Positions 280-63,849 of a stretch of DNA of 64,000 bases are shown here, piece after piece. The notes below the pieces were generated by a model, which was given only the letters and a program-made list of their open reading frames with translations, ran no database searches and was not told the DNA's origin. The first letter of the stretch is position 1; the number at the start of each line of letters is the position of its first letter. Made by a program: the position numbers and the translations under genes. Source of the stretch: Eubacterium sp. (GTDB lineage: Bacteria > Bacillota > Clostridia > Oscillospirales > Acutalibacteraceae); the NCBI GenBank assembly GCA_017446095.1, contig JAFSRN010000009.1, positions 59,770 through 123,769 on the forward strand, in the 5' to 3' direction.

Positions 280-387
280 GTAGGGGCGGATATCATCCGC
301 CCTTAACTATCCACCGTCCGCATACAATAGGTGTGGACGGAGTCCACCCGACACTGTCCACTATCCACTGTTCACCGTCCACTATAA
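280..387. repeat. Intergenic hairpin element, ACTATCCAC-word arms
   Basis: Begins with a palindrome (GTAGGGGCGGAT / ATCCGCCC), followed by tandem words of the form ACTATCCACCGTCC, a core palindrome GTGGACGGAGTCCAC and a second run of ACTGTCCACTATCCACTG words. It fills the whole gap between glgP and the GH13 gene and ends two bases before the preferred start codon at 390. Confidence 0.7.
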
Positions 388-389
388 AT

Positions 390-2249
390 ATGCAAATCTT
401 CAACTCGCGCAAAACAGAATACAAGGACATAATCAGAGCCGTTGCCACTGACGAAGGGGTAAGGCTTCGCATTGTTGTGCCCAGAAGTATGTCCTGCAAC
501 TGCGCGATGCTATGCGTTCATAAGGATAAAGAGGAAAATGTTTTTTACTCAATGTTCTGGGCAGGTATGTGCGGCAGCGACCACGAGTACTGGGAACTGC
601 ATTTTTCAGCCACAACGCCCGGACTTTACTGGTACCACTTTGAACTTGACACGCCGTGGGGCAGGAACTTTGTTTACAATGTCGGCGGCGGTGTGGGCGA
701 TATTGCGCCTACGGGCAACGACTTCCAGCAGACGGTGTACGACAGGAACTTTACCACGCCCGACTGGCTCAAGGGCGGTCTGATTTACCAGATTTTTCCC
801 GACCGTTTCTTCAACAGCGGCACGCCTAAAGTCGGTGTGCGCGAATCGCGCGTAATGCGCGACTGGGGCGACGAGCCTTACTGGAAAGAGGAACAGATGG
901 GCGGCGTCTGGAACAACGACTACTTCTGCGGCGACCTAAAGGGTATTGAGGAAAAACTGCCTTATCTTGCGGATTTGTGCGTAAGCTGCATCTACCTCAA
1001 CCCGATATTTGAGGCTAACTCAAATCACCGTTACGACACCGCGGACTATGAACGCATCGACCCGCTGCTCGGCACGGAATACGACCTTAAGGACCTCTGC
1101 AAAAAGGCAAAGGAAGAATACGGCATCAGCATTATTCTTGACGGCGTGTTCAGCCACACGGGCTGCGACAGTAAATATTTTAACATATATAATAACTACG
1201 ACAGCGTGGGCGCTTACAACAGCAAGGAAAGCCCGTACTTTTCGTGGTACAAATTCATAGATTATCCAAACGACTACCATTCGTGGTGGGGCATTAAGCT
1301 TTTGCCCGAGGTTATTGAGGAGGACGAGAGCTACCGCAATTATATCTGCGGCAAGCACGGTATTCTGCGCAAGTGGCTGCGCTGCGGCATTAGCGGCTGG
1401 CGGCTTGACGTTGCAGACGAGCTGCCCGATATTTTCCTTGACGATTTGCGCAAAACCGTTAAGGACGAAAATCCCGACGCGGTTATTATCGGCGAGGTCT
1501 GGGAGGATGCCACCACCAAGTTTGCCTACGGCGAGCGCAGGCGCTACCTGATGGGGCAGCAGCTTGATTCGGTTATGAACTATCCGTTTGCGGACGCGGT
1601 GCTTAATTTTGTGCGCTTTAAGAATGCGGACGCGTTCTTTGACAGCGTGCTCAGCATAGTGGAAAACTATCCGCCGCAGGTCACAAACGTGCTGATGAAT
1701 CACATCGGCACGCACGACACGGAACGTGCAATCAACCGCCTTGCAGGCGAGGACTGCGAGGGTCACGGCAGGGAATGGCAGTACGAGCGCAATAAACTTT
1801 CGCAGTACGACTACCTGCACGGCGTGTCGCTGCTGAAGCTCGCCTCGCTGTTGCAGTACACCTTGCCCGGCGTGCCATCGCTCTACTACGGCGACGAAAT
1901 CGGTATGATGGGCTACAAGGACCCGTTTAACCGCGGCTGTATGCAGTGGGATAACATCAACGAAGAACTGCTGCGCTGGTACAAACGCCTTGGCGAAATC
2001 AGGCGCGGCTGCCACGTGTTTAAGGAAGGTGCGTTTGAGCCTGTGTTCTGCTCGCATAAAACTATTGCCTACAAGCGCACCGACGAGGCAAGCGAAGTGC
2101 TTATTGCAATGAATCTTGACGAAATGCCGATAGAAATCGAAATCGGCGCAGAGTGGAACAATTCCTACACCCTGCTCGGCGACGTCAGCGGCGCAGAAAA
2201 AATAACCCTCGAGCCGTATAGGTACGCGCTGATTACGAGAGTGAAATAG
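390..2249 (+). CDS. GH13 family alpha-glycosidase (neopullulanase/cyclomaltodextrinase-like)
   Basis: A 619-residue alpha-amylase-superfamily enzyme. Residues 1-125 form a beta-rich N-terminal domain like those of neopullulanases; the catalytic barrel starts at LIYQIFPDRF (131-140). Conserved regions visible: DGVFSH (251-256), GWRLD with the probable nucleophile Asp340, IIGEVW with the probable acid/base Glu369, and HDTE with transition-state Asp443. No signal peptide is present, so it probably acts in the cytoplasm on maltodextrins or branched glycogen fragments, consistent with glycogen phosphorylase immediately upstream. An in-frame ATG at 333 lies inside the repeat element and would add 19 residues with no family similarity, so the start at 390 (MQIFNSRKTEY) is preferred. 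No clear ribosome binding site precedes it. Subfamily and exact substrate cannot be fixed by eye. Confidence 0.85.
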   Translation: MQIFNSRKTEYKDIIRAVATDEGVRLRIVVPRSMSCNCAMLCVHKDKEENVFYSMFWAGMCGSDHEYWELHFSATTPGLYWYHFELDTPWGRNFVYNVGGGVGDIAPTGNDFQQTVYDRNFTTPDWLKGGLIYQIFPDRFFNSGTPKVGVRESRVMRDWGDEPYWKEEQMGGVWNNDYFCGDLKGIEEKLPYLADLCVSCIYLNPIFEANSNHRYDTADYERIDPLLGTEYDLKDLCKKAKEEYGISIILDGVFSHTGCDSKYFNIYNNYDSVGAYNSKESPYFSWYKFIDYPNDYHSWWGIKLLPEVIEEDESYRNYICGKHGILRKWLRCGISGWRLDVADELPDIFLDDLRKTVKDENPDAVIIGEVWEDATTKFAYGERRRYLMGQQLDSVMNYPFADAVLNFVRFKNADAFFDSVLSIVENYPPQVTNVLMNHIGTHDTERAINRLAGEDCEGHGREWQYERNKLSQYDYLHGVSLLKLASLLQYTLPGVPSLYYGDEIGMMGYKDPFNRGCMQWDNINEELLRWYKRLGEIRRGCHVFKEGAFEPVFCSHKTIAYKRTDEASEVLIAMNLDEMPIEIEIGAEWNNSYTLLGDVSGAEKITLEPYRYALITRVK

Positions 2250-2420
2250 AATGATGAATGATAAATGATGAATGATGAATTTAGGTTACTCGGCTTTGCC
2301 TCAGACAATAAGTAGGGGTCAATCATGATTGACCCGCGGGCGATTCTTGAATCGCCCCTACAATGAGTGTGAGCGAAGCTCACCCTAAATTCATAATTCA
2401 TAACTCATAATTCATAATTA
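2250..2420. repeat. Intergenic hairpin element, ATTCATAA-word arms
   Basis: Left arm: tandem ATGATGAATGATAAATG words. Right arm: tandem ATTCATAATTCATAA words in inverted orientation. The core holds several small palindromes: GGGGTCAATC with GATTGACCC, GGGCGATTC with GAATCGCCC, and GTGAGCGAAGCTCAC. It follows the GH13 stop codon directly. Confidence 0.75.
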
Positions 2421-2450
2421 AAACGGTAACCATTTGGTTGCCGTTTTTTA
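2421..2450 (+). terminator. Rho-independent terminator
   Basis: Ten-base-pair stem AACGGTAACC / GGTTGCCGTT with an ATTT loop and a T6 tail. It closes the glgP-GH13 transcription unit. Confidence 0.85.
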
Positions 2451-2478
2451 ATAATATTTGAAAAATGATAATTAATTA

Positions 2479-2507
2479 TTGACAAACAATAATTATTGTG
2501 CTATAAC
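2479..2507 (+). promoter_or_regulatory. Promoter with palindromic operator candidate for the DUF2975/HTH cluster
   Basis: TTGACA at 2479-2484 and TATAAC at 2502-2507 with a 17-bp spacer. The spacer holds a perfect 14-bp palindrome, ACAATAATTATTGT (2486-2499), a position where a bound repressor would block RNA polymerase. The small HTH protein encoded at 3143 is the obvious candidate ligand, by inference only. Confidence 0.75.
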
Positions 2508-2537
2508 AATGGTGAAAATTACCTTTGGAGGTACACT

Positions 2538-3014
2538 ATGAAATACAGTATCAAGAGCGCAGGACTGACGCAGATTGTCGTCAGAATATGCTATGTGCTG
2601 CTTGCGGCGTCGGTGATTTTGTTCCCGATTCTTATGAAGCAGCAGGACGGCGACACATTCTATTTTGTTATGATTGCCGAGCACGGCAAGTACCTGATTT
2701 TTCCGTTTTATGCGGTTGTGCCTGCAGGCTATGCTGCGCTGATTTGCCTTGACAAACTGCTCACCAACATCAAGCGCGACATTGTGTTTGACGAGCGCAA
2801 CGTCACAATTCTCGGCACGCTCACGCTGTGCTGCCTTTACGCGGCGCTTGTCGGCGTGGTTTCGTACATCGTAATCGCGCTGTGCTACAAGTCAATCGAA
2901 ACGGTGCTTCTCCTCGCCTTCGGCGAAGCGTTTATGGCGCTCGTCATCCGCGTAGTCCGCGATGTAATCAAAAAGGCGATTGAGATTAAAGAGGATAATG
3001 ACCTCGTTGTTTAG
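2538..3014 (+). CDS. DUF2975 family membrane protein
   Basis: A 158-residue protein with four hydrophobic segments (about residues 10-30, 50-70, 95-120 and 125-145), matching the DUF2975 family, whose function is not established. These proteins are regularly encoded next to a small Cro/CI-type HTH protein of the YozG kind, as here (3143-3349). The start at 2538 is chosen because GGAGG lies at 2527-2531, seven bases away; an upstream in-frame ATG at 2496 falls within the promoter region. A strong promoter sits just upstream. The gap to the HTH gene is occupied by a repeat element, so co-transcription is likely but not certain. Confidence 0.75.
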   Translation: MKYSIKSAGLTQIVVRICYVLLAASVILFPILMKQQDGDTFYFVMIAEHGKYLIFPFYAVVPAGYAALICLDKLLTNIKRDIVFDERNVTILGTLTLCCLYAALVGVVSYIVIALCYKSIETVLLLAFGEAFMALVIRVVRDVIKKAIEIKEDNDLVV

Positions 3015-3129
3015 AATGTAGAATGGAGAATGGAGAATGGAGAATTTAGGGTGGACTTTGTCCACACCTATTATAATAGCCGTGCGCAGCACCATTAATT
3101 CTCAATTCTCAACTCTCAATTCTCAATTA
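3013..3129. repeat. Intergenic hairpin element, AGAATGG/ATTCTCA-word arms
   Basis: Left arm: tandem AGAATGGAGAATGG words. Right arm: tandem AATTCTCAATTCTCAA words, inverted. Core: GGTGGACTTTGTCCACACC, an ATTATAAT spacer, then a second small GC-rich motif. It sits inside the DUF2975-HTH cluster. Confidence 0.75.
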
Positions 3130-3349: not shown

Positions 3350-5191
3350 ATGAATCAGAATCCAAACAACAACGGCACATACTACGCGCCGCCGCAGGGT
3401 GGGCAGTATCAGCCACAGCAGCAATATGCACAGCCGCAGCAGGCGTATCAGATGTCGCAGTATGCTATGCATCCGGGGTACTATCCGCAGCAGAATTACC
3501 GCCCGTATGTACCGCAGAAAAAGGTGTACAAACCCTTTGAAAAAAAGGACAATCTGTTCTTCTTTTTAACGCTGCTCGCATCGTTTCTGATGCTCGACTT
3601 CGGGCTTTTCAAGGGCGTTAAGCTCGGCTTCACAATCGCGTACCTTGTGCTGTTTGAAATAACAACTGTGTACCTGTGGAAAAAGTCGTTGAAAAAATCG
3701 CTGTTTTCACTTTCGTGCGGAGTGCTTTCCGTCGCAGGTGCGTTTACATTTTCACTATACGACAACCTGCTTGTCAACTCAATTATGTTCATGCTCGTGT
3801 TCGGGCTTTACGGCTTTTATGTCCTTGGCATAAGCGGCTGCTTTACGCGAAAGCAGGGCAATTTCAAGGTGCTGTTCAACCTCGGCTATTCCGTGTTTAT
3901 TCAGCCGTTTGAAGGGCTCATTAACGTAATCGGCTCGGCACACGCAACGTCAAAGAAAAACAAAAGGCTTATCTACACAATTATCGGTGTGGCAATTGCT
4001 CTGCCGGTACTCGGTATTGTAATTCCGCTGCTCGTAAAGAGCGACGCTGCTTTTGAAGCGCTTGTGGGCAAAATCATCAAGAACCTCGGCATCTACATTG
4101 CGGAAATCGTGCTTGCCGTAATCGCCACGCCGTTCTTGTTCAGCTACTTCTACAACAAGCGCGCGGAGGTCGAGCAGAAAAAGCCTATGAAAAACGACGC
4201 GCACCGCTTCGTCGTAAGCCCCATAAGCATCGCTTTTCTCAGCACGGTTTCGTTAACCTATGTTGTGTACCTGTTCTCGCAGCTCGCATACTTCTTCGAC
4301 GCGTTCAGGGGAATCCTGCCTGCCGACTATGAGTACACTGCAAGCGCGTTTGCACGCCGCGGATTCTATGAGATGTTTGCGGTATGCGTAATCAACGTGC
4401 TGATTATCTCCGCAGTCAACGCGTTCACCAAAAAGGACGGCGGCAAAATGTCGCCCGCAGTCAAGGCGCTGTCGTGCTTTATCTCGCTGTTTTCTGTGCT
4501 GCTTATTGTGATATCAATGCAGAAGATGAAGCTTAACATCAGCATCTACGGACTGTCGGCAAACCGCGTGCTTGTAAGCACCCTGATGGTGATGATACTG
4601 ATTATGATTGCGTTCTTCATCCTGCACATCTTCGCGCCGAAAATCAGCTATTTCCAGCCGATTATCCTTATTTGCAGCGCTATGTTTATTGCACTTTCGT
4701 TTGCGAATATCGACGCGCGCTGTGCCGAGTACAACATCAAAGCGGCAAGCGAAAACAGGATAGAAATGCTTGACACTCAGACTATCCGCAAGTCGTCCGG
4801 CGCGGCGATTCCGTACCTTATCGACGTTGCCAAGGGCAGTGACAAGGTTGCCGCAAATTCCGCAAAAACGCAGCTTCTGATTTACATCAAGGACAGCGAA
4901 TACCTTGAGTTTGACAACAACAAAGACAAGGTGAAGTTCACAGGCAGCAGCGACTTCAGGTCGTATAACATCTCACGCGCAGGTGCGTACAAAGGCGTGT
5001 GCGACTACTACAATTCGCTTGGCGAAACGGAAAAGAAGCAAGCCAAGGACTTCATCAATATGTACGAAAATAGTTGGTATAACGAAGAGGAAAACTGCTA
5101 CGAAAGCTACCAAATTGACGACAACGGCACGCAGACAGTTTACCGCTATAACCCAAAAACAGGATTGTACGACAAAACCGAAACAAAGTAG
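3350..5191 (+). CDS. DUF4173-type polytopic membrane protein
   Basis: A 613-residue protein. Residues 1-60 are a Gln/Tyr/Pro/Asn-rich cytoplasmic tail with no predicted fold. From about 65 to 455 there are roughly eleven to twelve hydrophobic segments, and the last ~150 residues are soluble and polar. The arrangement, with motifs such as FTIAYLVLFEITTVYLW and GFYEMFAVCVINVLIISAVNAF, matches the DUF4173 (formerly DUF4153-like) family, whose function is unknown. The start has a good ribosome site (AAGGAGG at 3335-3341) inside the end of the HTH gene. The stop codon TAG (5189-5191) is part of the palindromic repeat at 5188-5215. Function is not inferable beyond membrane location. Confidence 0.7.
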   Translation: MNQNPNNNGTYYAPPQGGQYQPQQQYAQPQQAYQMSQYAMHPGYYPQQNYRPYVPQKKVYKPFEKKDNLFFFLTLLASFLMLDFGLFKGVKLGFTIAYLVLFEITTVYLWKKSLKKSLFSLSCGVLSVAGAFTFSLYDNLLVNSIMFMLVFGLYGFYVLGISGCFTRKQGNFKVLFNLGYSVFIQPFEGLINVIGSAHATSKKNKRLIYTIIGVAIALPVLGIVIPLLVKSDAAFEALVGKIIKNLGIYIAEIVLAVIATPFLFSYFYNKRAEVEQKKPMKNDAHRFVVSPISIAFLSTVSLTYVVYLFSQLAYFFDAFRGILPADYEYTASAFARRGFYEMFAVCVINVLIISAVNAFTKKDGGKMSPAVKALSCFISLFSVLLIVISMQKMKLNISIYGLSANRVLVSTLMVMILIMIAFFILHIFAPKISYFQPIILICSAMFIALSFANIDARCAEYNIKAASENRIEMLDTQTIRKSSGAAIPYLIDVAKGSDKVAANSAKTQLLIYIKDSEYLEFDNNKDKVKFTGSSDFRSYNISRAGAYKGVCDYYNSLGETEKKQAKDFINMYENSWYNEEENCYESYQIDDNGTQTVYRYNPKTGLYDKTETK

Positions 5192-5215
5192 GGGCGATTC
5201 GTGAATCGCCCCTAC
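5188..5215. repeat. Solo 13-bp inverted repeat (GTAGGGGCGATTC palindrome)
   Basis: GTAGGGGCGATTC followed after two bases by its exact complement GAATCGCCCCTAC. It lacks a T-run, so it is not a standard terminator. It is the core module of the larger hairpin elements here in solo form, and it supplies the stop codon of the preceding gene. A half-degraded copy starts at 9496. Confidence 0.85.
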
Positions 5216-5227
5216 AAACCGAAAACG

Positions 5228-5408: not shown

Positions 5409-6422
5409 ATGAAGAAATTAAAGGTCGGTATCATCGGCGCAGGTCGAATCGGACAGGTTCACGCAAAGTCAATTACATATCATATTCCGCAGGCAGAGAT
5501 TGTTGCCATTTCGGATATCTTTGTTGACGGCGCAAAAAAGGTGGCAGAGGAACTCGGTATCCCGAACTACTATCAGGACTACCACGAGATTCTTAATAAC
5601 CCCGAAATCGAGGCTGTTCTTATCTGCTCATCAACAGACACTCACGCGGACATCGCTTGCGAGGCTGCACAGGCAGGCAAGCACATCTTCTGCGAGAAGC
5701 CTGTTGACCTCACCGTTGCTAAAATTAAAAGAGTTATTGACGAGGTTAAAAAGGCAGGCGTTAAGCTGCAGATTGGCTTTAACCGCCGCTATGACCACAA
5801 CTTCGCTCACATTAAGGCACTCGCAAACGAGGGTAAACTCGGCGAGCTGCAGATAATCAAAATCACATCGCGCGACCCCGAACCGCCAAAGCCGGAGTAC
5901 GTTGCTGTATCGGGCGGTATCTTCCTTGATATGACTGTGCATGATTTTGATATGGCGCGCTTCATCGGCGGCGAGGTTGACGAGGTTTACGCCAACGCAA
6001 CAGTTATGGTTGACCCTGCAATCGGCGAAGCAGGTGACGTTGACACAGCGCTTGTAGCACTCAAGTTCAAGAGCGGCGCAATCGGTGTTATCGATAACTG
6101 CCGCAAGGCTTGCTACGGCTACGACCAGCGCCTTGAGGTATTTGGCTCGGGCGGTCAGGCATCTGCTGCTAACGACACACCTACAAACGTTGCTTATATC
6201 AACGAAAACGGCAACGTTACCGACAAGCCGCTTTACTTCTTCCTTGAAAGATATATGCAGTCCTTCGTTGACGAGATGACAGAGTTTGTTGACGCTGTTG
6301 TTAACGATAACGAAACACAGACTACTGTTAACGACGGTCTTGAAGCACTTCGCCTCGGACTCGCTGCAAAGCTTTCCGTCGCAGAGCACAGACCGGTAAA
6401 ACTCGATGAAATCGAGTTTTAA
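5409..6422 (+). CDS. iolG: Inositol 2-dehydrogenase (Gfo/Idh/MocA family)
   Basis: A 337-residue NAD-dependent oxidoreductase. The N-terminal Rossmann motif is GIIGAGRIG (7-15). The family catalytic motif EKP is at 96-98 (Lys97), and the catalytic Asp/His pair is Asp174 and His178 (FLDMTVHDFD), matching the K97/D172/H176 arrangement known for IolG. It would oxidise myo-inositol to scyllo-inosose, the first step of inositol breakdown in the cytoplasm. The start at 5409 has a GAGAGGTG ribosome site; an in-frame ATG 30 bases upstream overlaps the inverted repeat and is less likely. The next two genes, iolD and iolE, support the assignment against other Gfo/Idh dehydrogenases. Confidence 0.87.
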   Translation: MKKLKVGIIGAGRIGQVHAKSITYHIPQAEIVAISDIFVDGAKKVAEELGIPNYYQDYHEILNNPEIEAVLICSSTDTHADIACEAAQAGKHIFCEKPVDLTVAKIKRVIDEVKKAGVKLQIGFNRRYDHNFAHIKALANEGKLGELQIIKITSRDPEPPKPEYVAVSGGIFLDMTVHDFDMARFIGGEVDEVYANATVMVDPAIGEAGDVDTALVALKFKSGAIGVIDNCRKACYGYDQRLEVFGSGGQASAANDTPTNVAYINENGNVTDKPLYFFLERYMQSFVDEMTEFVDAVVNDNETQTTVNDGLEALRLGLAAKLSVAEHRPVKLDEIEF

Positions 6423-6549
6423 TGATGAATGATAAATGATGAATGATGAATTTATGGTGGGCGTTGCCCACACCCATTATATAATGCCCGTGCGGCGAGC
6501 ACCCGAAATTCATAATTCATAACTCATAATTCATAATTCATAATTCAAA
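6423..6549. repeat. Intergenic hairpin element, ATTCATAA-word arms
   Basis: Left arm of ATGATAAATGATGAATG words and inverted right arm of five to six ATTCATAA words. Core: GGTGGGCGTTGCCCACACC, ATTATATAAT spacer, GCCCGTGCGGCGAGCACC. It separates iolG from iolD. Confidence 0.75.
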
Positions 6550-8433: not shown

Positions 8434-8553
8434 GTTAAGTTTTAAGCTTTAAGTTTTAAGCTTGATGGTGGGCTTCGCCCACACCCATTATTTAATTGTT
8501 TGAGCGAAGCGATTAACAGAAAGCTTAACACTCAACACTTAACACTTAAAACT
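8434..8553. repeat. Intergenic hairpin element, TTAAGTTT-word arms
   Basis: Left arm TTAAGTTTTAAGCTTTAAG, core GGTGGGCTTCGCCCACACC with ATTATT spacer and GAGCGAAGCGA, inverted right arm of AAGCTTAACACTCAACACTT words. It separates iolD from iolE. Confidence 0.75.
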
Positions 8554-9476: not shown

Positions 9477-9495
9477 GTCCTGTTTTTGCGTATAG

Positions 9496-9726
9496 TAGGG
9501 GCGATTCACGAATCGCCTGCAGGTATAATTTAGGGCGCGATGCCTTCATCGCGCCGTTAGGTTCAAGACTCAAGGCTCAAGGGGTTGGGTGGGCTCTGCC
9601 CACACCCGATTATATTGCGGAGCGTCGAGGTCGCCGCTCCCTACAAGTACAGTATAACCGTAGGGAACGATGACCACATCGTTGCGTAATATAATTGCGG
9701 GCGGGTTGGGAAACCCGCCCCTACAA
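9496..9726. repeat. Composite array of palindromic repeat modules
   Basis: The longest repeat stretch seen. In order: a half-conserved GTAGGGGCGATTC palindrome, GGGCGCGATG / CATCGCGCC, tandem CAAGACTCAAGGCTCAAGG words, GGTGGGCTCTGCCCACACC, GGAGCGTC / CCGCTCC, AACGATG / CATCGTT and GGGCGGGTT / AACCCGCCC. It appears to be several core modules joined together and holds no gene. Confidence 0.7.
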
Positions 9727-10488: not shown

Positions 10489-10720
10489 CAATATATTTGA
10501 CGTTGAAGCGGTGTAAGTAGTACGCCTTTTGTTATTAAGAGAGTGTGCGGTTGGTGCAAGCACATTAACTCAGGCGCGTGAATTTCAGCCGCGGAGTCCT
10601 CTGCGAGAAAGTAAGCAGAGCGTATCGCTGCGTTAAAGCGTTTGAGTGGCAGGGCAACCTGCAATTTGAGTGGTACCACGGAACAGGGCTTTCGTCTCAA
10701 GGAGACGGAAGCTCTTTTTT
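10489..10720 (+). ncRNA. T-box leader controlling pheST (tRNA-Phe responsive)
   Basis: The leader carries the diagnostic T-box sequence, TTTGAGTGGTACCACG around 10665-10680, followed by an intrinsic terminator with stem GGGCTTTCGTCTC / GAGACGGAAGCTC (10686-10714) and T6. The Stem I region includes GTGAATTTCAGCC near 10578, where TTC is a plausible phenylalanine specifier codon, agreeing with the downstream pheS. Uncharged tRNA-Phe would pair with the codon and the T-box, stabilise the antiterminator and allow transcription. The assignment rests on the T-box motif, terminator and gene context; Stem I was not folded in detail. Confidence 0.92.
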
Positions 10721-14225: not shown

Positions 14226-14340
14226 ACAAAAACTGTCACACACCTGTGTGGCAGTTTTTTAGTGTTAAGTGTTGAGCTTTAAGCTTTTTGTTACTCGCTT
14301 CACTCGGACAATTATGTAGTGGCGGACACCATCCACCCGA
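14226..14340. repeat. Direct repeat copy A (pheT terminator plus hairpin element)
   Basis: A 115-bp block almost identical to 15313-15428: one single-base length difference and two substitutions seen by eye. It comprises a terminator (14228-14260), TTAAGTGTTGAGCTTTAAG words, GTTACTCGCTTCACTCGGAC, and GTGGCGGACACCATCCACC. Confidence 0.9.
14228..14260 (+). terminator. pheST terminator
   Basis: Stem CTGTCACACA / TGTGTGGCAG between A5 and T6. The same terminator occurs at 15315-15349. Confidence 0.9.
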
Positions 14341-14343
14341 TTT

Positions 14344-14577
14344 TTATAATCTGTTTTCAATTTCCTTTATAATATCGCTCATATTCACATCAAGCGCGCC
14401 TGCAATACGGTAAAGCGTTTCAAGCGTAGGCTTGCGGTCGCCGCGTTCTATTGCCGATAAGTGAGTTCTGCCGATATCCGCAAGTCCGCTTAATACTTCC
14501 TGCGATACGCCTTTTCTTTTTCTGAAATCATATATTACCTTACCCACAATTTTTGAATCTAACATTGGTTCAAACAT
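14344..14577 (-). CDS. XRE family HTH transcriptional regulator
   Basis: A 77-residue single-domain Cro/CI-type protein: IVGKVIYDFRKRKGVSQEVL, then the recognition region GLADIGRTHLSAIERGDRKP and TLETLYRIAGALDVNMSDI, a classic lambda-repressor-like fold. It is divergent from the DUF5067 gene and separated by about 110 bp containing that gene's promoter, so it may repress its neighbour or itself. Both genes lie between the direct repeats and have A+T-rich codons unlike pheT, which suggests they moved together. Start at 14577; an internal Met at residue 5 is an alternative. Confidence 0.85.
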   Translation of the reverse strand: MFEPMLDSKIVGKVIYDFRKRKGVSQEVLSGLADIGRTHLSAIERGDRKPTLETLYRIAGALDVNMSDIIKEIENRL

Positions 14578-15312: not shown

Positions 15313-15428
15313 ACAAAAACTGTCACACACCTGTGTGGCAGTTTTTTTAGTGTTAAGTGTTGAGTTTTAGGCTTTTTGTTACTCGCTTCACTCGGACAAT
15401 TATGTAGTGGCGGACACCATCCACCCGA
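15313..15428. repeat. Direct repeat copy B
   Basis: Second copy of the block at 14226-14340, following the DUF5067 stop codon. Beyond 15428 the copies diverge: here a run of AATTCCGAATTCCGAG words continues to about 15462, into the 3' end of rnmV. Confidence 0.9.
15315..15349 (+). terminator. Terminator of the DUF5067 gene
   Basis: Same stem as the pheST terminator (CTGTCACACA / TGTGTGGCAG) with T7. Confidence 0.9.
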
Positions 15429-15433
15429 AATTC

Positions 15434-16030
15434 CTAATTCCGAATTCCGAGTTCCGAATTAAGATTTATCAGTTCTTCTTTCGTCATCATATTGTTGATG
15501 CAGGAGAGCAGGGCAGAGGTGGAAAGGAATTCCGGCAGGTCGAGTTTTTGCATCAATCTTTTGCGGTTTTCCTTTGCATTTGGCGTGCCTGTCAGCCCGA
15601 GTTCAAACAGGTCGGCAGTGGTGACAGGGTCGTCGTTTTGCGACACAGAGCAGGTTACGCCTGCTTTTTTTAGTGCCTCTAAAATCACGTCCTTCGTCAT
15701 ACCCTCAACGCCGAGTTTGCCCTCTTTTGACGGCTCCGCCTTACGCTTTTCCTTGCCGTAGATATCGGGGATATAAACGTTTGTTATCCTGTTTTTCGGC
15801 ACGGCGGAAGCGATGTGATTCCTTATCATAAAGCCTGCGTGGTCGGAGTCCGTCAGCACGATTATTCCGCGTTCCTCTGCAAGCTTTTTGATGAATTTCA
15901 GCTTCTCTTTATCCTTAAAAACGCCAAAGCCGTTAGTTTCAATAATAAACGCGTCAAGGATGTTGGCAAGCTTCAGCTTGTCGTACCTGCCCTCAACAAT
16001 CACCGCTTCAGTTAGCTTGATTTTTTCCAT
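15434..16030 (-). CDS. rnmV: Ribonuclease M5-like TOPRIM protein (DUF4093)
   Basis: A 198-residue protein with an N-terminal TOPRIM domain: catalytic Glu in AVIVEGRYDKLKL and the DxD motif in IIVLTDSDHAGF. The C-terminal half matches the DUF4093 extension of ribonuclease M5, which matures 5S rRNA in Bacillota. The ATG at 16030 shares its A with the TGA of holA, so translation is coupled; a GTG one codon earlier is less likely. The last residues (about NSELGIRN) and the stop are encoded by AATTCCGA words of the adjacent repeat arm, so the natural C-terminus was probably replaced. Assignment to M5 rather than another small TOPRIM nuclease rests on length and domain order. Confidence 0.8.
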   Translation of the reverse strand: MEKIKLTEAVIVEGRYDKLKLANILDAFIIETNGFGVFKDKEKLKFIKKLAEERGIIVLTDSDHAGFMIRNHIASAVPKNRITNVYIPDIYGKEKRKAEPSKEGKLGVEGMTKDVILEALKKAGVTCSVSQNDDPVTTADLFELGLTGTPNAKENRKRLMQKLDLPEFLSTSALLSCINNMMTKEELINLNSELGIRN

Positions 16031-17067
16031 CACGCGTTCCTCAGCATCAGCAGTTTTGCCACGGTTTCCTCAAGCAAAATATTCTTGTCTATGGGGGTTG
16101 ACTTCATCTTTTCGTCAGTATCTGCAAGCGCGTCAAGCGCGTTGCGCAGGCTGTTAACACTTACTGTGCGGCAGTCGCGCGCGGCATTCCTGATTAAAAA
16201 CTCTCTGCCCTTGTAGCTGAAGTACTGCGCAAGCTCACTTTCGTTTGCGCCTGCCGCCTTTGCGCACTTAACGCGGTACATATCAACGTAGCATGAGGAG
16301 ATAACCGAAAGTATTGCAATCGGTTCTTCCTTTTGGGCAAACAGCGTGGAAAGCACTTTATACGCGCTGTCGCTGTCGCCCTTAAGGATATGCTTTGACA
16401 GGTCGTAAACCCTTGCCTGCAGCGATTTTACAGCGAGGTCGTCAATGACTTTTTTCGAAATCTCGCCCTCGCCGACGAAGGCGCACATCTTTTCAAGCTC
16501 TGAAAAAATGGTTTGTATATCGGAACCCACAATGCTTATCATATACCTTGCAAGGTCGGTGCTTATGGTGCAGCCGCGCTTTTTGGCAGAGGCAACAATA
16601 AGCCGCGCAAGTTCGCCCTCCGTGCGCTTGTCAAGCCGCACGGCGCTGCCTGCTTTTGCAAACAGGTTTTCAACAGTTTTCCACTTGCCGCTCTTCTTGG
16701 TGTCAACCTCAAGGCTGTCGTACCAGAACACAATAACGCTTGTATCCGGCACGTCGGCAAAGTACTCTTTAAGCGCGTCAATGTCCTTCTGGCTTTTGTC
16801 CAGCGGATAGTCGTGCACAAGGATAAACGTGCAGCCGCCCATCATGGGAATCATATCCGCGTCCTGCAAAATGTCGTTTACAGCGGTGTTTTTGCCGTCG
16901 TACTGATGGAAGTTGAAGTCGCCGAAAGCGTCGTCAACAAGCTTGTCCTTAAGCCTGCCGACGTAGTGCTCTTTGAGGTAACTCTCCTCGCCGTAAATCA
17001 GATACACGCGCGAAAAATTTTCAGTTTTAATTTGTTCTTTTAATTCTGTTTCAACGATTTTGGGCAT
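16030..17067 (-). CDS. holA: DNA polymerase III subunit delta
   Basis: A 345-residue protein matching HolA along its length. The N-terminal clamp-loader ATPase-like domain is clear from RVYLIYGEESYLKEHYVGRL; the Walker motifs are degenerate, as is normal for delta. Later segments such as SIVGSDIQTIFSELEKMCAFVG and YFSYKGREFLIRNAARDC belong to the lid and collar domains. Delta opens the sliding clamp during loading. GGAG precedes the ATG at the expected distance, and rnmV follows with overlapping codons. Upstream lies a repeat element in which no clear promoter was found. Confidence 0.92.
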   Translation of the reverse strand: MPKIVETELKEQIKTENFSRVYLIYGEESYLKEHYVGRLKDKLVDDAFGDFNFHQYDGKNTAVNDILQDADMIPMMGGCTFILVHDYPLDKSQKDIDALKEYFADVPDTSVIVFWYDSLEVDTKKSGKWKTVENLFAKAGSAVRLDKRTEGELARLIVASAKKRGCTISTDLARYMISIVGSDIQTIFSELEKMCAFVGEGEISKKVIDDLAVKSLQARVYDLSKHILKGDSDSAYKVLSTLFAQKEEPIAILSVISSCYVDMYRVKCAKAAGANESELAQYFSYKGREFLIRNAARDCRTVSVNSLRNALDALADTDEKMKSTPIDKNILLEETVAKLLMLRNA

Positions 17068-17077: not shown

Positions 17078-17219
17078 ATTGGTTTATGTTTTAAGATTTA
17101 AGTTTTAAGCTTGAGGGCGGGCAAAGCCCACACCCATTGTATGCGGACGACCAATGGTCGTCCGTTAAAAATGTCCGAGCGTAGCGAGTATCCTCAATTC
17201 ATCATTCATCATTTATCAT

Positions 17220-17222
<3 letters not shown>
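17078..17222. repeat. Intergenic hairpin element with two unlike arms
   Basis: Left arm of the TTTTAAG family (GTTTTAAGATTTAAGTTT), right arm of the ATTCATCA family (AATTCATCATTCATCATT). Core: GGGCGGGCAAAGCCCACACCC, GGACGACCAATGGTCGTCC and GAGCGTAGCGAG. It is a chimera of two arm families and runs into the lacZ stop codon. Confidence 0.75.
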
Positions 17223-20381
<3,159 letters not shown>

Positions 20382-21122: not shown

Positions 21123-21280
21123 CTGAATATGAATGATAAATTATGAATGATGAATTAAGGGTGCTGCGCTCAAACAATAATGTGGAGCGTCCGGTGGCCG
21201 CTCCCTACAATTGTAGGGGTCGGCGTCCCCGACGACCCGTAATAAATTCATAATTAATAACTCATAATTCATAATTAAAC
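21123..21280. repeat. Intergenic hairpin element, ATTCATAA-word arms
   Basis: Left arm AATGATAAATTATGAATG, inverted right arm ATTCATAATTAATAACTC. Core modules GGAGCGTCCGGTGGCCGCTCC and GTAGGGGTCGGCGTCCCCGACGACCC type palindromes (not exact). Separates ctsR from mcsA. Confidence 0.7.
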
Positions 21281-44280: not shown

Positions 44281-44327
44281 CGAGTAACTGTAATTCATAA
44301 TTAATCATTTATAATTCATAATTTAAG
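44263..44327. repeat. Repeat element half, core plus ATTCATAA-word arm
   Basis: Core TGTTCGAGCGTAGCGAGTAA (compare 42556-42581) and one arm of AATTCATAATTAATCATTTA words. The 5' part is coding: it forms the end of the radical SAM gene. Confidence 0.75.
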
Positions 44328-47300: not shown

Positions 47301-47905
47301 TGGGCGCGATTGAGGAATACAAAGAGGTATCCGAAAGGTACGAATTCCTTAAAGAACAGACCGACGATGTGGAAAAATCAAAGCGCGAACTGCAGAATAT
47401 AATCGAGGACTTAACCAAGTCGATGAGCGAAAAATTCCTCGTTCAGTTCAACCGCATAAACGAGCAGTTTAAGATTTCGTTTGCAGATTTCTTCGGCGGC
47501 GGCAAGGGTGAGCTTCTGCTTGAAAATCCTGACGACTGCCTTGAAAGCGCGATTGAAATCAAGATTCAGCCACCCGGAAAATCGGTACAGAATATCAACC
47601 TTTTCTCCGGCGGCGAAAAGTCGCTTGCGGCAATGGCTCTGCTGTTCTCCGTACTCAAAGTTACGCCTGCACCGTTTTGTATTTACGATGAGGTTGAGGC
47701 GGCGCTTGACGATGTAAACGTGGAACGCTTTGCAAAATATATGCGTAAAATGACTGACAAAACGCAGTTCATCTCTATCACTCACCGCCGCGGCACAATG
47801 GAGGAAGCGGATATCCTTTACGGCGTAACCATGCAGGAAAAGGGCGTATCCAAGCTGCTTGAACTCCAGAGCGCAGAGCTGGCGGAGAAGATGGGATTGG
47901 AATAG
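44336..47905 (+). CDS. smc: Chromosome partition protein SMC
   Basis: A 1189-residue protein of standard SMC length. Walker A GPNGSGKS is at 31-38; two long coiled coils (about 170-500 and 665-1010) flank the hinge (about 510-660, GIHGVLSQLISVDNDYSTAV to NPGGSMTGGSR). The C-terminal head has the signature LFSGGEKSLAAMALLFS (from 1089) and Walker B CIYDEVEAALDD (Asp1118, Glu1119). It forms the condensin with ScpA/ScpB, which are not in this window. GGAAAC is a weak ribosome site. ftsY follows 51 bp downstream, the common smc-ftsY arrangement. Confidence 0.97.
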   Translation: MLLRTLEMQGFKSFPDKTELNFGKGITAVVGPNGSGKSNISDAVRWVLGETSTKSLRGSKMEDVIFGGTSTRKALGFAQVVLTLDNSDGSLKDKGEIVTVSRRYYRSGESEYKIDGEQVRRKDIHELFMDTGLGADGYSMVGQGKIDSIISAKNEDRRELFEEAAGISRFRHKRRDAERRLEQAQENLVRLLDILGELESRVGPLKTQSEKAQKFLVFSEEKKELEIGVWMNKINGFTNALREQEHKLDAANASYEICESDLEAIEKEMEELALKTAEINTHIEQSRAGAAAFEEEAVRRDGEANVLEATAKHNEETIERLKNDINSADNSSDVIDEQIREKEEFIADSDSRIVAKRRELEGVADELNKLQGEGEEMANKNADLSRVLAELTLAMSDCKVKASKAQSSIDEIIARGGTIDENIAEADREIGIAAAQQNEFKENLEFVKAQISEGENSLGGYRMKLQSKTEKAEKKKEELEKTERGLAEKRSRAKMLSDLEKNMEGYSGAVKSVMHQRDAKALSGIHGVLSQLISVDNDYSTAVEVALGAAMQNIVTSSESDAKRAINFLKQNNQGRATFLPISAIRPRSIDESDLDDNFGYVDIASNLVECDAQYKNIVDNLLGRVIVAEDIDCAIGISKRYKNRYKIVTLDGQVMNPGGSMTGGSRSKGAGILSRANMIEELNAEADKLEAKRDELAAEYKHLVEDANKSAADLQGADADLRNAQEDLIRAEGDMKLVSDRIASLTEQKKQMLEEKENSKARIEAFRAELRAAAEEESAVQSKITAAESELEKLTSGADELQSSREQIRKRSEEINLELVEIAKDGEAAKLAIEELKLRRSTASDRVRSINDEIAAIVQRNETLMESIAGVKYAAQELRDKAKTVNSTIAEKIEERNQVEKRTGELRAAEKEKNADKEKLSAEIVRIEERKNNMKKEYDNLNDMLFEQYELTRVEAQALGIVIEDMTAAKRRLNEIKLEIKKLGSINVGAIEEYKEVSERYEFLKEQTDDVEKSKRELQNIIEDLTKSMSEKFLVQFNRINEQFKISFADFFGGGKGELLLENPDDCLESAIEIKIQPPGKSVQNINLFSGGEKSLAAMALLFSVLKVTPAPFCIYDEVEAALDDVNVERFAKYMRKMTDKTQFISITHRRGTMEEADILYGVTMQEKGVSKLLELQSAELAEKMGLE

Positions 47906-47943
47906 AATTCGGAATGCGGAGTTCGGATTTCGGAATTAATTTG
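47904..47943. repeat. Repeat arm, GGAATTC words
   Basis: AATTCGGAATGCGGAGTTCGG-type words without core or second arm between smc and ftsY. Confidence 0.6.
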
Positions 47944-49514: not shown

Positions 49515-49562
49515 GTAGGGACGAGCAGTGCTCGTCCGCGGACGACCGATGGTCGTCCCTAC
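49515..49562. repeat. Double-palindrome element between rdgB and yhbY
   Basis: GGACGAGCAGTGCTCGTCC and GGACGACCGATGGTCGTCC joined at GTCCGCGGAC with GTAG/CTAC ends. It is the reverse complement of 10721-10768 with about three differences in 48 bp. Confidence 0.88.
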
Positions 49563-50035: not shown

Positions 50036-50628
50036 TGAAAACCGGCATTTTCGGCGGTGCGTTCAACCCCGTACACAACGGGCATCTGCACCTTGTAAAG
50101 AATTATGTCGACCTGCTGGGGCTTGACAGAGTACTGCTGATTCCCACCTCCGTACCGCCGCACAAGACTGCAGACGGTCTTATTGCAGGCGAACACAGGA
50201 TAAATATGCTGCGCCTTGCAACAGAGGGCGATGACCGCTTTGAAGTGTCGGATATTGAGTTTCGGCGCGGCGGCAACAGCTACACTTACGATACGCTTTG
50301 CGCCCTGCGCGAAATGTACCCCGACGACAGCTTTTACCTTATTGTCGGCTCTGACCAGTACCTGACCTTTGATAAGTGGTACAGGGCGGCTGATATTGCG
50401 GATATGGTATCTATCTGCGCTGCCGCGAGGGAAAAGGACAAGTACGAACAGATGCTTGAATTCAAGGCGAAAAACGACTTTTTAAACAGCAGCGTAATCA
50501 CGCAGCTTAAGGTTGTTGAGGTCAGTTCAACCGCGGTGAGAAATGCCGTTAAGAACGGCGAAAGCATTGCAGATATGGTGCCGCCTGCGGTGGAAAAGTA
50601 TATCAGGGATAACAGGCTATATGTATAA
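50035..50628 (+). CDS. nadD: Nicotinate-nucleotide adenylyltransferase
   Basis: A 197-residue nucleotidyltransferase. The HxGH region is GIFGGAFNPVHNGHLHL (5-20) and the C-terminal motif is VEVSSTAVRNAVKNG, the NadD form of ISSTxIR. It joins ATP and nicotinate mononucleotide to make deamido-NAD. The ATG at 50035 shares its A with the yhbY stop codon; a GTG one codon upstream is also possible. yqeK begins eight bases before its end, the usual nadD-yqeK-rsfS order. Confidence 0.95.
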   Translation: MKTGIFGGAFNPVHNGHLHLVKNYVDLLGLDRVLLIPTSVPPHKTADGLIAGEHRINMLRLATEGDDRFEVSDIEFRRGGNSYTYDTLCALREMYPDDSFYLIVGSDQYLTFDKWYRAADIADMVSICAAAREKDKYEQMLEFKAKNDFLNSSVITQLKVVEVSSTAVRNAVKNGESIADMVPPAVEKYIRDNRLYV

Positions 50629-51193
50629 CACAGATGATTATATAAAACTTATTAAAGAGCGGCTGTCACCGTACCGTTTTAACCACAGTATGTGCGTTGC
50701 AGATAAGGCGCGCGAACTTGCAAAAAAGCACGGCGTTGACCCCGACAAGGCGTATATTGCAGGCATACTGCACGACGTTACCAAGGAAACCGACTACGCC
50801 GAACAGCGCAGGCTGATTGAACAGTTTGAAACGATGACAGACCTTGAAATAAACAACAAAAAGGTTTATCATCAGATGAGCGGTGCGGCGTTTGTGCAGA
50901 GCGAACTCGGCATAGCCGACAGCGATATTATAGGCGGTATACGCTACCACACAACGGGGCGCGAGGATATGACGACCTTTGAGATGATTATCTACCTCGC
51001 CGACTTCACCTCGGCAGACCGCGACTACCCCGACGTGGATATAATGAGAGAAAAAACGGATAACGATTTGCTTGACGGTATGCTTTACTCGTTGTCGTAC
51101 ACAATCACAAGCATTGTAAAGCAGGGCAGGCAGATACATCCGGATACTATAAATTGCTATAATTATTGTTTGGCTTTAAGTGTTAAGCATTAA
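50621..51193 (+). CDS. yqeK: HD-domain hydrolase YqeK (symmetrical diadenosine tetraphosphatase)
   Basis: A 190-residue HD-domain protein. Metal ligands are in RFNHSMCVADKARELA, AGILHDVTKE (the HD pair) and the IRYHTTGREDM and YLADFTSADRDYP segments. YqeK proteins split Ap4A to ADP. The last six residues (ALSVKH) and the stop are read from the TTAAGTGTTAAGCATTAAG arm of the adjacent repeat, so the native C-terminus was slightly changed. The start overlaps nadD by eight bases; no upstream alternative is better. Confidence 0.92.
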   Translation: MYNTDDYIKLIKERLSPYRFNHSMCVADKARELAKKHGVDPDKAYIAGILHDVTKETDYAEQRRLIEQFETMTDLEINNKKVYHQMSGAAFVQSELGIADSDIIGGIRYHTTGREDMTTFEMIIYLADFTSADRDYPDVDIMREKTDNDLLDGMLYSLSYTITSIVKQGRQIHPDTINCYNYCLALSVKH

Positions 51194-51295
51194 GTGTTGA
51201 GCTTATGGATACTCGCTTCGCTCGGACAATTAATATAACGAGTGTGAGCTTAGCTCACCCTCAAGCTTAAAACTTAACACCTAAAACTTAAAACT
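51174..51295. repeat. Intergenic hairpin element, TTAAGTGT-word arms
   Basis: Left arm CTTTAAGTGTTAAGCATTAA, inverted right arm AAGCTTAAAACTTAACACC. Core ACTCGCTTCGCTCGGAC and GTGTGAGCTTAGCTCACCC. It overlaps the 3' end of yqeK and separates it from rsfS. Confidence 0.75.
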
Positions 51296-51680: not shown

Positions 51681-51803
51681 GGTTTTAAGCTTTAAGCTTT
51701 AAGTTTTAAGCTTTTTGGTGGACTTTGTCCACACCTATTATAATTGGGTACGGGCAACGCCCGTCATTTAGCTTAACACTTAACACTTAAAACTTAACAC
51801 CCA
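51681..51803. repeat. Intergenic hairpin element, TTAAGCTT-word arms
   Basis: Left arm GGTTTTAAGCTTTAAGC, inverted right arm of TTAACACTTAACACTTAAAA words. Core GGTGGACTTTGTCCACACC, ATTATAAT spacer, GGGTACGGGCAACGCCCGTC. Lies between rsfS and leuS. Confidence 0.78.
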
Positions 51804-54226: not shown

Positions 54227-54240
54227 CGGCACTATGTTTT

Positions 54241-54350
54241 CAGTATTCAGTTTTCGGTTTTCAGTTTGCTGACGGGCGTTGCCCGTACCCTATTATAATA
54301 GGTGTGGACGAAGTCCGCCCATTTACTGAATACTGAATACCGAATACTGT
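54241..54350. repeat. Intergenic hairpin element, CAGTTTTC-word arms
   Basis: Left arm CAGTATTCAGTTTTCGG, inverted right arm ACTGAATACTGAATACCG. Core GACGGGCGTTGCCCGTACCC, ATTATAAT spacer, GGTGTGGACGAAGTCCGCCC. Confidence 0.78.
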
Positions 54351-54989: not shown

Positions 54990-54998
54990 TTAATAATA

Positions 54999-55119
54999 GC
55001 CTTCCCCTTGAGGGGAAGGTGGATTGCCGTAGGCAAGACGGATGAGGTGGTAAAGTTTAGCAACTCGTGTTTTACACCTCATCAGTCACTTCGTGACAGC
55101 TTCCCCTCAAGGGGAAGCC
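54999..55119. repeat. 121-bp MITE-like palindromic element ahead of rpoB
   Basis: Terminal inverted repeats GCCTTCCCCTTGAGGGGAAG and GCTTCCCCTCAAGGGGAAGC. Inside, CGGATGAGGTG / CACCTCATC and GTCACTTCGTGAC are further inverted repeats. This pattern is known to me as a common non-coding repeat of Clostridia. The right end is followed by T6, so it can act as a terminator for the preceding flavodoxin-like gene. It is unrelated to the word-arm elements elsewhere in the window. Confidence 0.8.
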
Positions 55120-55231
55120 TTTTTTGTTTAATTTCGTGCCGCGGGTGCGGGTGAGCACGAAGCACACGGCACCGTTGTTCAAAAAGTTTGCAGATTTTTC
55201 CGCCTTTGGTAAAATTAAATAAAAAAAGTCC

Positions 55232-62852: not shown

Positions 62853-62863
62853 GCACTACGTGC

Positions 62864-62896
62864 AGGCTCAAGGCTCAAGACTCAAGGTGCAAAGGT
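62864..62896. repeat. Repeat arm, GGCTCAAGACTCAA words
   Basis: GGCTCAAGGCTCAAGACTCA followed by AGGTGCAAAGG, without core; the same word family as at 9562-9590. Confidence 0.55.
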
Positions 62897-62926
62897 AAAT
62901 CGCACCGAAATATATAATATTTTGTC

Positions 62927-62956
62927 TTGACAAAGAGAGGTTTCGAGTGCTATAAT
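62927..62956 (+). promoter_or_regulatory. Promoter for rpsL (str operon)
   Basis: TTGACA (62927-62932) and TATAAT (62951-62956) with an 18-bp spacer. The 285-bp rpoC-rpsL gap otherwise contains the repeat arm and the leader below. Confidence 0.88.
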
Positions 62957-62962
62957 ACTAAA

Positions 62963-63137
62963 TCGTGTCAGTGAAGTTTTGGCGATTTTAACAAAATTTC
63001 ATACGATAATTTGTACAAAACGCTATACAGAGTACGGCTTGTCCGTACTCTGTGGCGTGCGTATATCAAGCCGCTTTGGAAACAGAACTGCTTAATATGC
63101 GCACGACGCATAAATATTACAGAAAGGAGATAAACTA
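62963..63137 (+). promoter_or_regulatory. Structured rpsL leader
   Basis: A ~175-nt untranslated leader containing an 11-bp perfect stem ACAGAGTACGG / CCGTACTCTGT (63027-63053), CTTGT loop, extendable outwards with CGC/GCG pairs to 63021-63057. There is no T-run, so it is not a terminator. A GTGCGTAT...ATGCGCAC pairing may close a second arm. It could be an autoregulatory site for a ribosomal protein of the str operon. Confidence 0.5.
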
Positions 63138-63557
63138 TTGCCTACCTTTAATCAGTTAGTCAGAACAGGACGTAAGTCCCTGGAAAAGAAGGCTAAAGCA
63201 CCTGCTCTTTTAAAAGGTCTTAACACCAAAAAGAACGTGATGACAGACAACGCTTCACCTCAGAAGCGCGGCGTTTGCACAGCAGTTAAAACAGCTACAC
63301 CTAAAAAGCCTAACTCAGCACTTCGTAAGATTGCCAGAGTTCGTCTTACAAACGGCATGGAAGTTTCTGCTTACATCCCGGGCGTTGGTCATAACCTTCA
63401 GGAGCACAGCGTTGTAATGGTTCGTGGCGGACGTGTTAAGGACCTTCCCGGTGTACGTTACCACATCATCCGCGGCACACTCGATACTCAGGGTGTAACC
63501 GGCAGAATGCAGAGCCGTTCAAAGTACGGTGCAAAGAAGCCAAAGGTTAAGAAATAA
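63138..63557 (+). CDS. rpsL: 30S ribosomal protein S12
   Basis: A 139-residue uS12 with the Bacillota-type insertion near residues 24-36 ([15 protein letters not shown]). The decoding-site loop [19 protein letters not shown] has the streptomycin-sensitive lysines, and the second loop is [20 protein letters not shown]. It begins at TTG (63138) with AAAGGAG eight bases upstream; the conserved PTFNQLVR N-terminus leaves no alternative. It is the first gene of a str-type operon, with rpsG 372 bp downstream. Confidence 0.97.
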
Positions 63558-63672
63558 TTGATTATAATTAGGTTTAATTGCGAATTTGCACATTTTTTGA
63601 TTTGAAATACAGGCGTATGCCTGCATCAATAAAATGCACAAATTCATCAATTCTCCCTAAATTTTAATTCAA
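63558..63672. repeat. Long imperfect hairpin between rpsL and rpsG
   Basis: A 115-bp imperfect palindrome starting at the rpsL stop. Centre: CAGGCGTATGCCTG (63610-63623). Arms: GAATTTGCACATTTTTTGAT on the left against ATCAATAAAATGCACAAATTC on the right, and further out TTGATTATAATT against TTAATTCAA. It is A+T-rich, has no T-run and differs from the word-arm elements. Confidence 0.65.
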
Positions 63673-63727
63673 TTATTCAAATCTTAACAAAAACTATACA
63701 GGACTAACAATAGTTTATCTTAATATT

Positions 63728-63849
63728 GTTTTAAGTTTTAAGAGTCAAGTTTTAAGCTATTGGGTGAGCTTTGCTCACACTCATTATAATCGGGTACGGG
63801 CAGAGCCCGTCATAAGGCTTAACACTTAAAACTCAACACTTAAAACCCA
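63728..63849. repeat. Intergenic hairpin element, TTAAGTTT-word arms
   Basis: Left arm GTTTTAAGTTTTAAGAG, inverted right arm TTAACACTTAAAACTCAAC. Core GGGTGAGCTTTGCTCACACTC, ATTATAAT spacer, GGGTACGGGCAGAGCCCGTC. It lies within the rpsL-rpsG gap; the rest of the gap (63850-63929) holds the rpsG ribosome site and nothing else recognised. Confidence 0.78.

Follow-up and report, generated by a model that had tools for sequence, protein, structure and literature searches.

Heptamer arrays and hairpins in the window

The DNA analysed here is a 64,000-nucleotide stretch of contig JAFSRN010000009.1 from a clostridial Eubacterium sp. (assembly GCA_017446095.1, positions 59,770 to 123,769), hereafter called the window. 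Gaps between its co-directional genes are occupied by a dispersed family of elements, each with a left arm of tandem short words, a core of GC-rich hairpins and a right arm of inverted words. A preliminary description made from the letters of the window had reported this family, and its presence was borne out by a search for repeat arrays (match +1, mismatch -2, score of at least 10) in which periods of 4 to 12 were compared: 29 arrays had period 7, one had period 10, and periods 4, 5, 6, 8, 9, 11 and 12 gave none. The arm unit is 7 nt, in place of the eight-letter words listed originally, and the true arm words are the heptamers ATTCATA, ACTTAAA, ACTGAAA, ATTCCGA, ATTCTCA and ACTGTCC; one word family, CTCAAGG (9563-9582 and 62864-62886), had been overlooked. 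The family is not confined to the window, since another 400 kb of the same genome (G000, a 2.09-Mb draft) contained 50 arrays of period 7, as compared with 11, 3 and 17 of periods 6, 8 and 9 and none of periods 5 and 10.

No array among the 29 has most of its length within one of 44 genes picked by hand from the list of open reading frames (ORFs); at a looser score of 7, 3 of 41 arrays do. Two arrays overlap the 3' tails of ORFs, by 9 nt (ORF 17220-20360) and by 24 nt (a 199-aa ORF at 15434-16033 that was outside the 44-gene set), three further arrays overlap only ORFs antisense to or nested in accepted genes, and the left arm of the element at 51169-51295 extends into the stop codon of ORF 50543-51193. 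As the overlaps concern only ORF ends and antisense or nested ORFs, no gene is split, in agreement with the preliminary description, yet some arms do touch gene ends. Twelve elements were folded as RNA and compared with dinucleotide shuffles, the longer ones at 2250-2420 and 21126-21277 being left out. Ten proved more stable than their shuffles (z -2.9 to -7.2), as expected from inverted arms, whereas two chimeric elements, at 29355-29483 (z 0.3) and 42527-42612 (z -0.1), showed no gain in stability.

The core hairpins and the joint between them, ATTATAAT, are found in the window elements as described, except that one of the modules is of different provenance. The GTAG-tagged palindrome, with 14 strand-wise matches in the window, occurs as a separate module and is also present outside the heptamer elements (at 5187, 10720 and 49514); GTAGGG palindromes are therefore assigned to a separate family resembling repetitive extragenic palindromes (REPs). 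They probably constitute a second system, of the type served by REP-associated tyrosine transposases (RAYTs), apart from the heptamer elements. The GTAG tag on core palindromes of the window is what the two systems have in common; the difference is that here the palindromes are nested in or lie beside heptamer elements and are missing from many of these. In the available text of a survey of GTAG repeats (PMC3733652), Proteobacteria, Cyanobacteria, Chloroflexi and the PVC group are named and the word Firmicutes does not appear.

Intervening sequence protein genes between heptamer arms

A search of 60 genus genomes with the rpsL-rpsG region of the window pointed to G034 as the nearest relative among them. 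The G034 counterpart of the window element at 40120-40258 encloses a reading frame. Its product is a four-helix-bundle protein of family PF05635/TIGR02436, the 23S rRNA intervening sequence protein (IVP, also S23p). All four IVP proteins that were scanned exceeded the cut-offs of both PF05635 and TIGR02436. IVP matches are present in 32 of the 60 genomes, that of the window included, and exceed the cut-off in 31. The own genome of the window has five matches, corresponding to four genes (one in two pieces), with none in the window itself. The earlier statement that no protein able to move the elements is encoded thus holds for the window, but a candidate helper exists elsewhere in the same genome. 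In its complete form, the element consists of a left heptamer arm, a GC hairpin, the IVP gene, a second GC hairpin and an inverted right heptamer arm.

This arrangement recurs throughout the genus and beyond. Within 250 nt of 50 genus IVP genes, a period-7 array was found upstream of 25, downstream of 27 and on both sides of 20, whereas the other periods from 4 to 12 gave no two-sided case and one single-sided match (3 of 53 genes, at contig edges, were left out; two were counted twice, L049 being the same as L065 and L064 part of L107). In a named genome collection, the 75 of 80 IVP loci with enough flanking sequence had arrays upstream in 51, downstream in 47 and on both sides in 36 at score 10, and in 63, 58 and 51, respectively, at score 8; two-sided cases at periods other than multiples of 7 numbered none at score 10 and at most one at score 8. 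With phyla assigned from record titles, and at the looser array setting, both arms were detected in 27 of 34 loci from Bacillota, 17 of 29 from Bacteroidota, 3 of 3 from Pseudomonadota, 1 of 3 each from Ignavibacteriota and Campylobacterota, the single loci from KSB1 and Verrucomicrobiota (1/1 each) and 3 of 4 unplaced loci. One arm was seen at each of the single loci from Fusobacteriota and Bdellovibrionota, and the array detector found no arm at the one Gemmatimonadota locus. In the genus set, 24 of 49 loci have both arms and 34 have at least one. On cyanobacterial plasmids the corresponding figures are 8 and 11 of 12, so that the likeness to the short tandemly repeated repetitive (STRR) sequences of cyanobacteria, noted in the preliminary description, is supported by IVP genes lying within inverted heptamer arms of the same kind.

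In a set of 144 IVP loci, from which L049 and L064 were omitted and in which at least one further duplicate (L133 = L110) was kept, arrays flank the gene on both sides in 87. The words of the two arms match in inverted orientation (at least 6 of 7 positions) in 79 of these and in direct orientation in 5, with a mean agreement of 6.4 of 7 between upstream and downstream words as compared with 4.1 of 7 for shuffled partners. Random intervals of the same length at the same loci had both arms in 1 case out of 650, against 79 of 131 for the IVP genes. The arms are close to the gene, at median distances of 22 nt from the start codon and 24 nt from the stop codon. Where IVP lies between co-directional genes, it is in the sense orientation in 75 cases and antisense in 4; the upstream neighbour is co-directed with IVP in 100 of 109 cases and the downstream neighbour in 93 of 111.

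Across phyla, arm words, written in the sense of the right arm, share the pattern NNMAYTN (3.81 bits, the highest value among 20 column-permuted sets being 2.39). Among loci with C or T as the fifth base, this base is C in 18 of 19 loci with SNIAEG-type IVP and T in 72 of 85 with the GTSIGAN type (Fisher p 5e-11); 22 loci of unclear subfamily, 16 armless loci and a single subfamily-B locus whose fifth base is A were left out of the table. A correlation also exists between IVP identity and the variable triplet (Mantel r 0.163, reached by 0 of 2000 permutations) at 109 loci, the remainder, after removal of near-identical ones, of 114 that have an arm and an uninterrupted frame of at least 80 residues. 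Furthermore, array density rises with IVP count in 23 genomes (Spearman 0.65), and ten IVP-free genomes yielded one array in 200 kb. The statistics on array density, the Mantel test, the fifth base and gene orientation all ignore kinship; those relating word and IVP therefore speak for a coupling, not for binding. IVP likely recognises the heptamers, and the coupling of word and protein provides for a direct binding test.

The window elements resemble IVP elements from which the gene has been removed: in a comparison of 21 window stretches with genus IVP genes, six match both sides of a gene. The clearest case is the element at 3012-3128, which aligns with own-genome locus L093 over 57 nt to the left of the gene (82%) and 37 nt to the right (89%); where L093 holds the gene, the window element holds 23 nt including ATTATAAT. 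Three ATTCATM elements (2249, 6421 and 21132) match both sides of L075 in G036 at 83-90%, the element at 51169-51295 matches L065 in G034 at 77-78%, and that at 8435-8553 matches L068 at 70-80%. Carriers of an IVP gene with the same word are found in the own genome for ATTCTCM (L093) and for CTCAAGG (L094, a broken gene), in G034 for ATTCCGA and ACTGTCC, and in G036 for ATTCATM. No left-right asymmetry of the arms by which gene-less copies could be oriented was seen at 73 two-armed loci.

At three loci (L077, L078 and L092) IVP genes devoid of heptamer arms have CATCACT or AATTAGC words and short hairpins nearby. On viral contigs, 11 IVP loci were found with query A2 and none for the L063 type. 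At L120, L122 and L125, on cyanobacterial plasmids, IVP lies between CRISPR genes (cas6 and cas4, or cas10 and cmr3). The IVP domain appears in a figure legend of a CRISPR survey; IVP genes in such surroundings may be insertions, not CRISPR components.

Site occupancy, origin of the gene-less elements and relation to known systems

Comparison with relatives speaks against the elements being fixed at their sites. G034 lacks the element between rpsL and rpsG, and the 146 nt that follow its position are 99% identical there. Twenty-two window gaps bear arrays, and 16 of these are syntenic in the G034 stretches compared; with words judged by eye, nine of the G034 gaps are array-free, five have another word and two have the same word. 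The array-free gaps comprise three short ones (13-23 nt), the rpsL-rpsG gap and five long ones with other repeats. In G007, 4 of 7 syntenic gaps are array-free and 3 have arrays. Exact empty sites were found on plasmids of Nostocales. IVP element L129 of Trichormus variabilis ATCC 29413 is missing at the near-identical L258 of Nostoc linckia NIES-25, with no target base lost and a 5-base overlap, GTAAT, on both sides; the site is likewise exact, with a 3-base overlap (ATG), when L132 is compared with L262 and L263. The L129 site in Brasilonema (L260) contains, by eye, a gene-less copy. In other comparisons the boundaries are less sharp: the right side of L265, a second occupied relative, does not align exactly with L258, 42 target bases remain unaligned in L123/L255, and in L125/L253, L121/L254, L128/L278, L128/L279 and L127/L280 the element is absent with a junction that is not exact.

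The window elements are thus probably non-autonomous derivatives, akin to miniature inverted-repeat transposable elements (MITEs), of a mobile element whose sole gene is that for IVP. The empty sites and the presumed autonomous, gene-bearing copies support the mobile family that the preliminary description had envisaged as a possibility. We infer that IVP moves its element. In the window copies the gene would have been lost and the two hairpins joined at ATTATAAT. IVP might recognise the heptamers as DNA or as an RNA hairpin and promote the copying of its own element and, acting in trans, of copies that lack the gene but have a compatible word. The long stem could make insertion tolerable between co-transcribed genes, perhaps through processing by RNase III in the manner of rRNA intervening sequences. 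The sense bias would follow if spreading required that the sense strand of the element be read. Both features, considered by analogy with rRNA intervening sequences, suggest an existence inside transcripts.

Several observations weigh against this interpretation. No detected arm flanks 15 of the 49 keyed genus IVP loci, and G039 and G013, with five IVP matches each, showed no arrays in the 20 kb sampled. For fifteen of the 21 window queries no two-sided match to an IVP gene was obtained, and for ACTTAAM, which many window elements carry in their arms, no IVP gene with the same word was found. Because of arm symmetry, reverse-strand matches are obtained as well, that of 3012-3128 to L072 being slightly longer. 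As five of the nine array-free gaps of G034 carry other repeats, these are not plain empty sites. There is also no general target duplication (mean longest common flank of 4.41, versus 4.57 in permuted pairs, at 86 loci); a fixed duplication was consequently rejected, GTAAT and ATG being single cases. Both the sense orientation and the coupling of word and subfamily could partly reflect selection or common descent. Association alone does not prove IVP to be the mover, and no function is known for the protein according to the accessible text of PMC4990558.

IVP might instead be a passenger, with the elements being moved by another enzyme, for example a Y1 (RAYT/IS200-type) transposase, and the heptamers arising by replication slippage. 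The own genome has one weak Y1 match (23.2 bits), GTAGGG REPs are nested in some cores, and slippage has been proposed as the origin of bacterial heptamers (PMC4679880, PMC4692102). However, no Y1 match was found in G034 (87% complete), a genome with four IVP matches; 83 kb of it contain 17 arrays and a single GTAGGG palindrome. Nor would slippage yield inverted, word-matched arms around one gene or a coupling to protein subfamilies, which makes this an unlikely explanation. Two of eight Y1 loci carry GTAGGG palindromes, inside the reading frame, and six have none; the frames with palindromes of the window type are those at 1431-1630 of L115 (own genome, contig C22) and at 1645-1845 of L116 (G007).

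Somewhat more doubtful still is the view that the elements are selected cis-acting RNA devices (terminators, mRNA stabilisers or translation control), their mobility being incidental or past, and that IVP is an RNA-binding regulator which reads the heptamers. The co-directional gaps, the good folding of most elements and the predominance of sense IVP genes are all compatible with such a role, and a translational function has been suggested for TAACTGA repeats (PMC4679880). On the other hand, site and word are poorly conserved, 14 of the 16 syntenic gaps differing between G000 and G034, the plasmids have exact empty sites, and insertions are found beside unrelated genes. Movement through an excised hairpin RNA that is reverse-transcribed, with IVP acting like Avd, its homologue in diversity-generating retroelements (DGRs), beside a reverse transcriptase, fits the sense bias and the Avd-family matches, below cut-offs, of two of the four scanned IVP proteins, but was set aside as a very improbable minor rival after a search of the 60 genus genomes for RVT_1 gave no match in G000, G034, G007, G002 and G050, all rich in elements or IVP (G034, G002 and G050 being only 81-88% complete). 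One RVT_1 match was obtained in G052, which has eight IVP matches.

A mobile element with IVP as its sole gene has affinities with the intervening sequences of 23S rRNA in Coxiella, Leptospira and others, in which an ORF for the same protein family lies in a hairpin with long terminal inverted repeats. In Coxiella, two or three tandem heptamers, depending on the strain, and a degenerate one are found just upstream of the ORF, the terminal stem has 28 bp and excision is by RNase III (PMC4990558). The IVP elements share the S23p gene, which the gene-less window copies lack, and long-stem terminal inverted repeats are evident in the ten stable window folds and in the 79 loci with inverted words. 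The intervening sequences reside in helices of rRNA, whereas no overlap with rRNA at the gathering score was found for any of 80 IVP loci and the window lacks an rRNA match; nor does the text available describe the rRNA sequences as a family dispersed between genes that includes gene-less copies. A MITE derived from a classical DDE insertion sequence would differ in having a target duplication of fixed length, at variance with the 86 loci and with the overlaps of five and three bases at exact sites, and an autonomous relative with a transposase, in whose place the gene between the arms here is that for IVP. The accessory protein Avd of DGRs differs in having an adjacent reverse transcriptase.

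With the STRR sequences the window elements have in common tandem intergenic heptanucleotides, the host being clostridial and not cyanobacterial. Tandem intergenic heptamers have been reported in Nostoc and Calothrix (GGGGAYT) and in Xanthomonas (GGGAATC), two Xanthomonas genomes having 70 and 75 inverted heptamer pairs whose function was left open (PMC4692102); the available text of that article links these repeats to no protein, whereas here heptamers form the arms of IVP elements, also on cyanobacterial plasmids. TAACTGA heptamers, intergenic and scattered in Beggiatoaceae, Cyanobacteria and Bacteroidetes (PMC4679880), fit NNMAYTN by eye; they are mostly short arrays near start codons, and inverted arms or IVP are not described in the accessible part of the article. 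In 2015, heptameric repeats were said to lack a detailed literature and their functional role to await elucidation (PMC4692102), and IVP has been termed functionally uncharacterised (PMC11270868). Heptamer repeats (Nostoc, Xanthomonas, TAACTGA) and IVP in rRNA were thus already known, and what appears to be new is the presence of IVP genes inside heptamer-armed elements; within open-licence PubMed Central, to the extent of the text available there, no paper tying IVP to intergenic heptamer elements was found, subscription papers and preprints being outside this coverage.

These findings join two separately described puzzles, intergenic heptamers and an uncharacterised protein, across many phyla. 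We are slightly inclined to go further and to regard IVP elements as a class of bacterial mobile DNA, found in two-armed form in Cyanobacteria and at least seven further phyla, in which IVP would read a heptamer code in the arms (fixed MAYT, variable triplet), move its element in the sense orientation into transcribed gaps and spawn gene-less copies; STRR sequences, the Xanthomonas GGGAATC and TAACTGA repeats and the 23S rRNA intervening sequences would then be its forms or remnants. The elements would offer a source for rRNA intervening sequences.

Individual elements of the window

The window elements, given here without strand, include several with arms of a single word family. ATTCATM arms delimit elements at 2249-2419 (arms 2249-2280 and 2388-2419, with a nested GTAGGG REP pair at about 2311-2361 and a GTGAGC hairpin), 6421-6547 (z -2.9) and 21132-21276 (nested GTAGGG REPs; the G034 gap is 19 nt), and ATTCTCM arms the one at 3012-3128 (z -5.8), the IVP-like element without a gene discussed above. 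ACTTAAM arms are found at 8435-8553 (z -5.5), 22823-22940 (z -4.7), 51684-51797 (z -7.2) and 63728-63840, the rpsL-rpsG element (z -5.4). The element at 51169-51295 (z -3.4) has TTAAG/ACTTAAM arms, with a word common to G034, and is the one that matches both sides of a G034 IVP gene. ACTGAAW arms characterise 54239-54347 (z -6.0), and ACTGAAA arms 40134-40257 (z -2.9), whose G034 site is the IVP-bearing element, with another word, and whose G007 gap is 12 nt.

Four chimeras combine left and right arms from different word families: TTAAG and ATTCCGA at 15349-15457, where the right arm overlaps the tail of the 199-aa ORF; ACTTAAA and ATTCATC at 17083-17228 (z -2.9; G034 gap of 23 nt); an ACAGTGG-type word and ACTGAAA at 29355-29481; and GGAATTC and ACTTAAM at 42527-42616 (gaps of 13 nt in G034 and 4 nt in G007), the last two being those that fold no better than shuffles. 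Such elements suggest recombination via shared cores.

Less complete structures occur as well. At the left end, 280-382 consists of a GTAGGG REP (280-303), a GTGGAC hairpin and a right arm of TCCACTG heptamers (352-382), and a composite at 9495-9725 contains GTAGGG REPs, the first CTCAAGG array and a GC hairpin. A left half-element with a TTAAG arm and hairpin (14261-14350) has a near-duplicate at 15349, and a right half-element with the ATTCATA word lies at 44268-44323 (G007 gap of 7 nt). Isolated arrays include a solitary TCCACTG arm at the start of a predicted ORF (27623-27641), two neighbouring arrays of the words GGAATTC and CCGAAAA (31825-31889), a GGAATTC array (47905-47934) whose G034 site has the same word, and the solitary CTCAAGG array at 62864-62886, whose word also flanks the broken own-genome gene L094. 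Outside the heptamer family are a stand-alone GTAGGG palindrome at 5187-5216 and a stand-alone REP pair at 49515-49562, absent in G034 and G007.

The gap at 62853-63137 and its orthologues, and in L093, L072 and L109 the site ahead of the same downstream gene, contain elements of different words depending on the species; repeated insertion or turnover of the word in place may account for such differences. Another repeat family, dispersed and about 200 nt in length, CTCCCTTG...GACCACCCCTCAGTCACTTCGTGACAGCT..., occupies several G034 gaps, which match window positions 3015, 6423, 8416, 54227 and 62853, and has a window copy at 54990-55160. The window also contains a T-box leader (RF00230) at 10494-10702, with a score of 119 bits.

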